Of a stretch of DNA of 64,000 bases, positions 1,968-23,743 are shown in pieces; position 1 is the stretch's first letter, and every line of letters starts with the position of its first letter. Both the position numbers and the translations under genes were made by a program. The DNA is from Notamacropus eugenii (lineage: Eukaryota; Chordata; Mammalia; Diprotodontia; Macropodidae), in NCBI RefSeq assembly GCF_028372415.1, contig NC_092872.1, forward strand, positions 91,308,575 through 91,372,574, given 5' to 3'. Under the pieces are notes generated by a model. That model searched no databases, was not told the DNA's origin, and saw nothing but the letters and a program-made list of their open reading frames with translations.

Positions 1968-2095
1968 CTCAAAACTTGTGGCCTGAGCCAAGCACAGCTT
2001 CCTCACAGACTCAGCTACATCAGCTACCTGGGACTGGGCGGCCAGACCCTCCCACTCATACAGCAAACTGCTCACGTAAGACTTTCCATAATCTA
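1968..2095 (-). CDS. LLTP-like gene exon 8: start of the helical region
   Basis: This 128-nt exon encodes residues 277-319, including VDYGKSYVSSLLYEWEGLAA and VADVAESVRKLCLAQAT. It aligns in style with the apoB region KKMGLAFES...AEAVLKTLQELKK, where the beta barrel gives way to the alpha-helical domain. The acceptor is GGGCTTTTTGTCTTCAAAG, preceded by a branch-point-like CATTAAC; the donor is GTAAGC. It enters with two bases that complete the phase-1 codon left by exon 7. No further exon was recognised between 1967 and the left edge. Confidence 0.8.

Positions 2096-23743: not shown

Follow-up and report, generated by a model that had tools for sequence, protein, structure and literature searches.

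Exons of a marsupial LOC400499 orthologue, a probable lipoprotein scaffold of the large lipid transfer protein superfamily, beside LITAF in Notamacropus eugenii

Lipid transport in vertebrates is usually told with three large lipid transfer proteins (LLTPs), namely apoB, MTP and vitellogenin (VTG). In its available part, a classification of the superfamily names apoB, MTP and Vtg for vertebrates, ties DUF1081 to an 'APO family' of apoB, apoLp (insect apolipophorin II/I) and apoCr, and gives a C-terminal VWD for the apoLp/apoCr class (Avarre 2007, PMC1783640); vitellogenins are described as lost in therian mammals (PMC10015161). In this study, we analysed a stretch of 64,000 nt from Notamacropus eugenii (assembly GCF_028372415.1, contig NC_092872.1, positions 91,308,575 to 91,372,574 of the forward strand), hereafter the window, for which an earlier note made from the letters alone had proposed an LLTP gene beside LITAF. 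In our judgement, the marsupial orthologue of human LOC400499 quite probably has its first eight coding exons in the window; the gene belongs to a lineage of giant LLTPs retained by jawed vertebrates, and its protein is probably a secreted lipoprotein scaffold of the apolipophorin/apoB kind. This reading is built on the gene structure, the homology, the predicted large lipid transfer (LLT) fold of an orthologue, a clade of its own and a common gene neighbourhood.

Gene structure and family identity

The LLTP gene lies on the minus strand, where eight exons between 23743, which is the ATG, and 1968, the end of exon 8, add up to 957 nt and 319 codons with no internal stop in the spliced model. 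The exons have AG/GT flanks and matching phases, exon 1 beginning at its ATG, and the N-terminus of the product is likely a signal peptide, as judged by eye. The eight minus-strand exons of the earlier note are confirmed as the N-terminal part of an LLTP; its length and both of its ends, the points compared, agree with ours. A match of the 319-residue model to Pfam Vitellogenin_N, the check that the note had proposed, was found at E 1.8e-37, far beyond what chance would give, the score being 129.6 bits where the cut-off is 24, with model residues 44-299 aligned to positions 1-279 of the 590 in the profile. Even among unspliced stop-to-stop open reading frames (ORFs) of the minus strand, four of the nine tested matched Vitellogenin_N collinearly with the profile (1-48, 80-122, 138-173 and 208-252), one of them alone exceeding the Pfam cut-off. 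The gene extends past the left edge of the window, inside which about one tenth of the protein is encoded. The exons are as follows.

Exon 1, 23683..23743, minus strand: ATG and likely signal peptide MVMGLAAFVLLCTVVAAATG, phase 1 out, donor gtaagt; 13 of 20 residues as in owl.
Exon 2, 20925..20975, minus strand: KTPENPGQEASCRTECAG, first cysteine pair; 14 of 17 residues as in wombat, 9 of 17 as in orang-utan.
Exon 3, 15301..15461, minus strand: PGVLYFSKGTRYSYRYST...CHMVLW, where Vitellogenin_N begins; start set by the wombat protein.
Exon 4, 11528..11598, minus strand: LQDIRVKSSLESKEEPMKESESLR, splice sites ..tcttag / gtaagg; 21 of 23 residues as in wombat.
Exon 5, 8617..8782, minus strand: ...VVNIKRGILSLLQ...; Pfam E 4.5e-10 for its ORF; 53 of 56 residues as in wombat.
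Exon 6, 8078..8215, minus strand: VDVLGKCPTTYE...KTKDLNQC..., with the cysteine pair common to LLTPs.
Exon 7, 6637..6817, minus strand: ...LECYQSF...TACTEF...PFSEKG..., third cysteine pair.
Exon 8, 1968..2095, minus strand: VDYGKSYVSSLLYEWEG...KLCLAQATSFE, phase 0 out; 39 of 43 residues as in wombat.

The splice sites of exon 2 score highly with consensus weights, and the ORF of exon 3 matches Vitellogenin_N at E 4.5e-5, slightly below the cut-off. Two placements rest on homologous proteins. Exon 4 (11598-11528, LQDIRVKSS...) is common to the orang-utan, goat and lizard proteins, which by tblastn fell at the identical location each time (E 0.11, 0.73 and 0.095), and it replaces an ab initio exon at 13828-13737, which was rejected; the start of exon 3, where PGxxYFSKG stands also in the wombat protein, replaces a rejected start at 15434. 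Exon 7 has an alternative start at 6826 that adds SPQ, and exon 8 is 65.7% identical to the orang-utan protein across 35 residues. A comparison of exon positions with APOB exon sizes was dropped as unreliable. Over the aligned parts, the window model is identical to the wombat protein at 267 of 301 residues (88.7%) and to the Gracilinanus protein at 245 of 284 (86.3%). The final 319-residue model was used only for the exon structure, the percent identities to wombat, Gracilinanus, insect apoLp and a teleost APOB-like protein, and the Pfam value of 1.8e-37; an earlier model of 310 residues was used for the trees, the cysteine alignment, the padded-query protein search, the comparison with the marsupial models and the exon-by-exon residue counts.

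Relatives were collected by three protein searches. The first gene model gave three matches at E <=10 among 1878 candidates (an orang-utan 'vitellogenin-like' protein, a partial goat protein and a lizard protein). The padded query gave 13 at E <=1e-3 among 2952 candidates, comprising wombat (85%), owl, rabbit, seal, narwhal, dog ('apolipophorins-like'), sawfish, turtle, caecilian and colobus, a pit viper model in which an ABC transporter is joined to the LLTP, and, at 30-31%, two mosquito proteins. With a profile made from five relatives there were 161 at E <=1e-10 among 7994 candidates scored, and the survey of relatives was based on the best 120 of these. The fact that PF21013, the Pfam 'LOC400499 family', was present in 109 of these 120, the human protein among them, indicates that this is the family to which the window gene belongs, as its marsupial representative. 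The human relative is XP_016879420.1, 'putative uncharacterized protein LOC400499', a model of 3285 residues also known as ENSG00000188897 and CTD-3088G3.8.

The matches listed cover placentals, marsupials, birds, turtles, squamates, amphibians, sharks/rays and cyprinids, and include models of more than 3,100 residues in human, macaque, dog, horse, pig, yak and whales. Mouse, rat and monotremes do not appear among these best 120, from which we infer no absence. The cyprinids (P0116, P0117) are the only teleosts with the LOC400499 domain among the matches listed. The marsupial models found are faulty at the 5' end: that of Monodelphis (P0101) begins after all eight window exons, and those of Gracilinanus and wombat (P0083, P0004) are without exons 1-2 and exon 1, respectively. 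The family is already annotated, with a human member, and is not a marsupial peculiarity; the retention in marsupials suggested earlier is not supported, the gene being found in humans and from sharks to placentals, and neither is the idea of a milk or uterine carrier; egg-laying birds and reptiles also have the gene.

Phylogenetic placement and domain architecture

In a tree built over 1100 columns from 27 rows, each trimmed to 1100 residues, the LOC400499 family formed one clade (support 93/100, and 100/99 without the two longest rows), apart from the APOB, VTG and apoLp clades, each of which had 100/100. The window protein grouped with wombat (98/91) within the marsupials (100/100), which suggests a species rather closer to the wombat than to the opossums, though no near relative of it; marsupials, placentals, mammals and sauropsids grouped as expected, and the order of amphibians and of placentals was weak. 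Joining the marsupials to APOB (p 3.5e-48), VTG (p 2.2e-4) or apoLp (p 9.4e-5) was rejected. Joining them to MTP, represented by one partial row that is 29% filled, was not (p 0.11). Neither of the outcomes that the earlier note had named as refuting it, no Vitellogenin_N hit or a confident place inside APOB, MTP or a known vitellogenin, was obtained; a place with APOB or VTG is rejected, one with MTP is not. Of the nine aligned cysteines that follow the signal peptide, one mosquito apoLp row has all nine, APOB six and lamprey VTG two, and the late-starting MTP row shares two with the window model; on this alignment, the cysteines lean to apoLp. The tree, the cysteine pattern and the VWD of the long orthologues support the note's proposal of a poorly described further vertebrate LLTP lineage, possibly apolipophorin-like.

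The longest orthologue models run from Vitellogenin_N through an open beta-sheet, the Pfam LOC400499 domain and an amphipathic-beta middle to VWD and C8. Vitellogenin_N and the open beta sheet were found in all 15 family proteins scanned and a C-terminal VWD in four, all longer than 3,200 residues. PF21013 follows the open beta-sheet in the Monodelphis and Gracilinanus orthologues, in a part that lies outside the window, and is absent from the wombat model. The predicted structure of an orthologue shows the barrel, helical layer and open sheets of an LLTP-like LLT fold; in its beta-rich middle, the family is similar to apoLp and to apoB-like proteins. The longest serine run in 16 family rows, some incomplete, is five or fewer; a sawfish VTG taken for comparison likewise has only five.

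A charged linker of variable length (owl residues 676-791) lies where mosquito apoLp has a basic cleavage-type site; the shark linkers look basic, whereas those of placentals look E- and P-rich. A eukaryote protein from EukProt (P0120) also has an LLT module and a C-terminal VWD; its middle is amphipathic-helix, not beta (z 9.2 at 100 degrees), and it forms a long branch in the tree.

LITAF neighbourhood and the rest of the window

The upstream neighbour of the LLTP gene, on the same strand, is LITAF, as the earlier note had stated.

LITAF coding exons, 48492-48292, 45438-45280 and 42230-42126, minus strand: tblastn E 4e-29, 3e-26 and 8e-22 with human LITAF as the query.

Turtle and antbird gene models start with LITAF exons and then continue into the LLTP, their LITAF parts being 85 and 87% identical to the window LITAF over 53 residues. 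In the mammal, turtle and bird cases examined here, LITAF is the gene next to the LOC400499 lineage. Two snake models (pit viper and cobra; P0014, P0115) have an ABC transporter, named MRP1-like in the pit viper, fused ahead of the LLTP where the turtle and bird have LITAF, suggesting a different upstream neighbour in snakes. We take human LITAF to lie at about 11.64 Mb, beside LOC400499. Published papers place LOC400499/ENSG00000188897 on chromosome 16 near 11.4-11.6 Mb, and one of them gives chr16:11,536,754 as +80,689 from the LOC400499 start, which would put the start of the human gene near 11.617 Mb if it is on the minus strand.

Elsewhere in the window, a short interspersed element tail motif, presumably of the marsupial type, has 10 copies against none in shuffles. 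Long microsatellites lie in the LLTP introns, namely (CT)77 at 14256-14408, (GAAG)29 at 17347-17460 and (TAGA)22 at 10045-10133, and outside the gene, namely (GT)38 at 43667-43743 and (TATGG)13 at 61141-61207. Rfam gave no match and ARAGORN no tRNA in the window.

Proposed function, rival explanations and comparison with known LLTPs

The architecture suggests how the protein may work. It would enter the secretory pathway, where its N-terminal LLT module (beta barrel, helical layer and open beta sheets) would take up lipid in the endoplasmic reticulum; the long amphipathic beta middle might then, like that of apoB, wrap a core of neutral lipid, and the VWD-C8 end may serve assembly, multimerisation or receptor binding. 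On this view, vertebrates would have in the LOC400499 protein a second lipoprotein scaffold, similar in build to insect apolipophorin II/I, although cargo, tissue and physiology are inferred only. A bolder suggestion, somewhat less likely than not, is that jawed vertebrates including humans kept a true apolipophorin-type lipoprotein beside apoB. It would be a second secreted particle of the non-exchangeable kind, carrying neutral lipid, ending in a VWF-like part and encoded by the gene beside LITAF. It is conceivable, if again somewhat doubtful, that the names LOC400499, 'vitellogenin-like' and 'apolipophorins-like', the only annotation it has, have caused this particle to be overlooked.

Several observations weigh against the scaffold reading. 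The human model begins within exon 2 and is without a signal peptide, and one human transcript is given as subject to nonsense-mediated decay in the available part of PMC4584318. Sister-group support in the tree is weak (apoLp 59/74 and 66/43), and joining the whole family to APOB gave p 0.18 and 0.14, to VTG 0.27 and to MTP 0.43. The cyprinid rows branch below sharks (97/98 and 85/84), contrary to species order, so that they may be fast-evolving or a paralogue, and long branches and an uneven composition of the rows were flagged by the tree software. Confidence in the predicted model is low at the linker (about 663-762) and at the end, and beta amphipathicity also occurs in ordinary beta-rich globular proteins. 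DUF1081 stayed below threshold (E ~0.003, 18 bits against a cut-off of 25) in two of the four pieces scanned and gave no match in the human and cyprinid pieces; a local hhalign comparison gave a probability of 59-61 against 0.3-1.0 for control slices, and both of these DUF1081 tests are weak. The apoLp furin-type site is not conserved, a basic motif standing at that place in three of 16 family rows.

The VWD and C8 at the C-terminus, a pair typical of VWF and mucins, would also fit an LLTP put to a non-lipoprotein use, namely a secreted VWD/C8 protein with a part in clotting, in mucus or in immune adhesion, for which the lipid pocket would be of secondary importance. The Vtg/CP family includes the crustacean clotting protein (PMC1783640, in part), and a 'vitellogenin domain-containing protein', which may or may not belong to the LOC400499 family, is listed for shark skin mucus. 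Given the Vitellogenin_N and open beta sheet in 15 of 15 proteins, the predicted LLTP-like fold and a beta-rich middle like that of apoLp and apoB-like proteins, we consider such a use unlikely, although not negligible. A decaying relic with little function in mammals seems more improbable still: short or 5'-defective models (orang-utan with 349 aa, Monodelphis without the N end) and the human decay transcript speak for it, but model defects can be annotation faults, the exons in the window are unbroken and encode a sequence with 86-89% identity to the proteins of two other marsupials, and the models of over 3,100 residues extend from human to whales.

An intracellular MTP-like lipid-transfer chaperone has very little to commend it. 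The first gene model resembles MTP in motif (E 2.8e-8) and the 29%-filled MTP row left the marsupials+MTP grouping standing, yet the human orthologue has 3285 residues with VWD and C8, as against MTP chains of 884 and 894, and across the stretch that this row covers only the common cysteine pair is shared. The database name 'vitellogenin-like' of the wombat and orang-utan proteins would suit a translocated or marsupial-specific copy of APOB or vitellogenin; with both groupings refuted (p 3.5e-48 and 2.2e-4), same-domain relatives in sharks and the gene following LITAF in the turtle and bird models, there is next to no chance of such a copy, and the note's alternative of a translocated family member is not supported.

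The function of LOC400499 appears unstudied in the sources, which were available in part. The passages covered under the gene, clone and Ensembl names gave list-type mentions only, none as an LLTP, in a literature search that had preprints and most subscription journals outside its reach. A suggestive single-nucleotide polymorphism for high-density lipoprotein cholesterol lies in a LOC400499 intron (P 3.88e-6), and one paper groups CTD-3088G3.8 under lipid transport and metabolism; other mentions are in a joint proteome table, an IgA nephropathy table, an infection expression list, a selection scan, a dog methylation table, a repeat table, a heart-failure list and an RNA-editing list. Signals in blood and lavage do not count as evidence for the protein, as other transcripts of the locus may be their source. 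A conserved further LLTP lineage, humans included, would mean a candidate lipoprotein scaffold absent from the current picture, and the question is testable, because the human gene is defined, its neighbourhood is old and the biochemistry to be expected is clear.

Among known systems, the window gene is a member of the LLTP superfamily that falls in neither the APOB nor the VTG clade. With insect apoLp it has the LLT module and, in one mosquito row, 9/9 aligned cysteines in common, at about 30% identity; the mosquito model has DUF1081 above the cut-off and no VWD, whereas the LOC400499 family has a weak DUF1081, no conserved furin-type site, and its own LOC400499 domain and C8. Membership of the APO family of Avarre 2007 is not assigned because DUF1081 is below the cut-off. 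APOB has the common LLT module, six of the nine cysteines and an amphipathic-beta middle, but it forms a separate clade and the VWD and C8 are on the LOC400499 side; a teleost APOB-like protein is 23% identical to the window protein. Vitellogenin shares the LLT module and VWD but forms a separate clade, with only the LLTP-wide cysteine pair in common. The MTP large subunit is far shorter and is not known to have a VWD or C8. From human LOC400499 and PF21013 nothing observed separates the window gene, which is its orthologue by sequence, tree and LITAF neighbourhood and which supplies the signal-peptide exon and exon 2 that are wholly or partly missing from three marsupial models.
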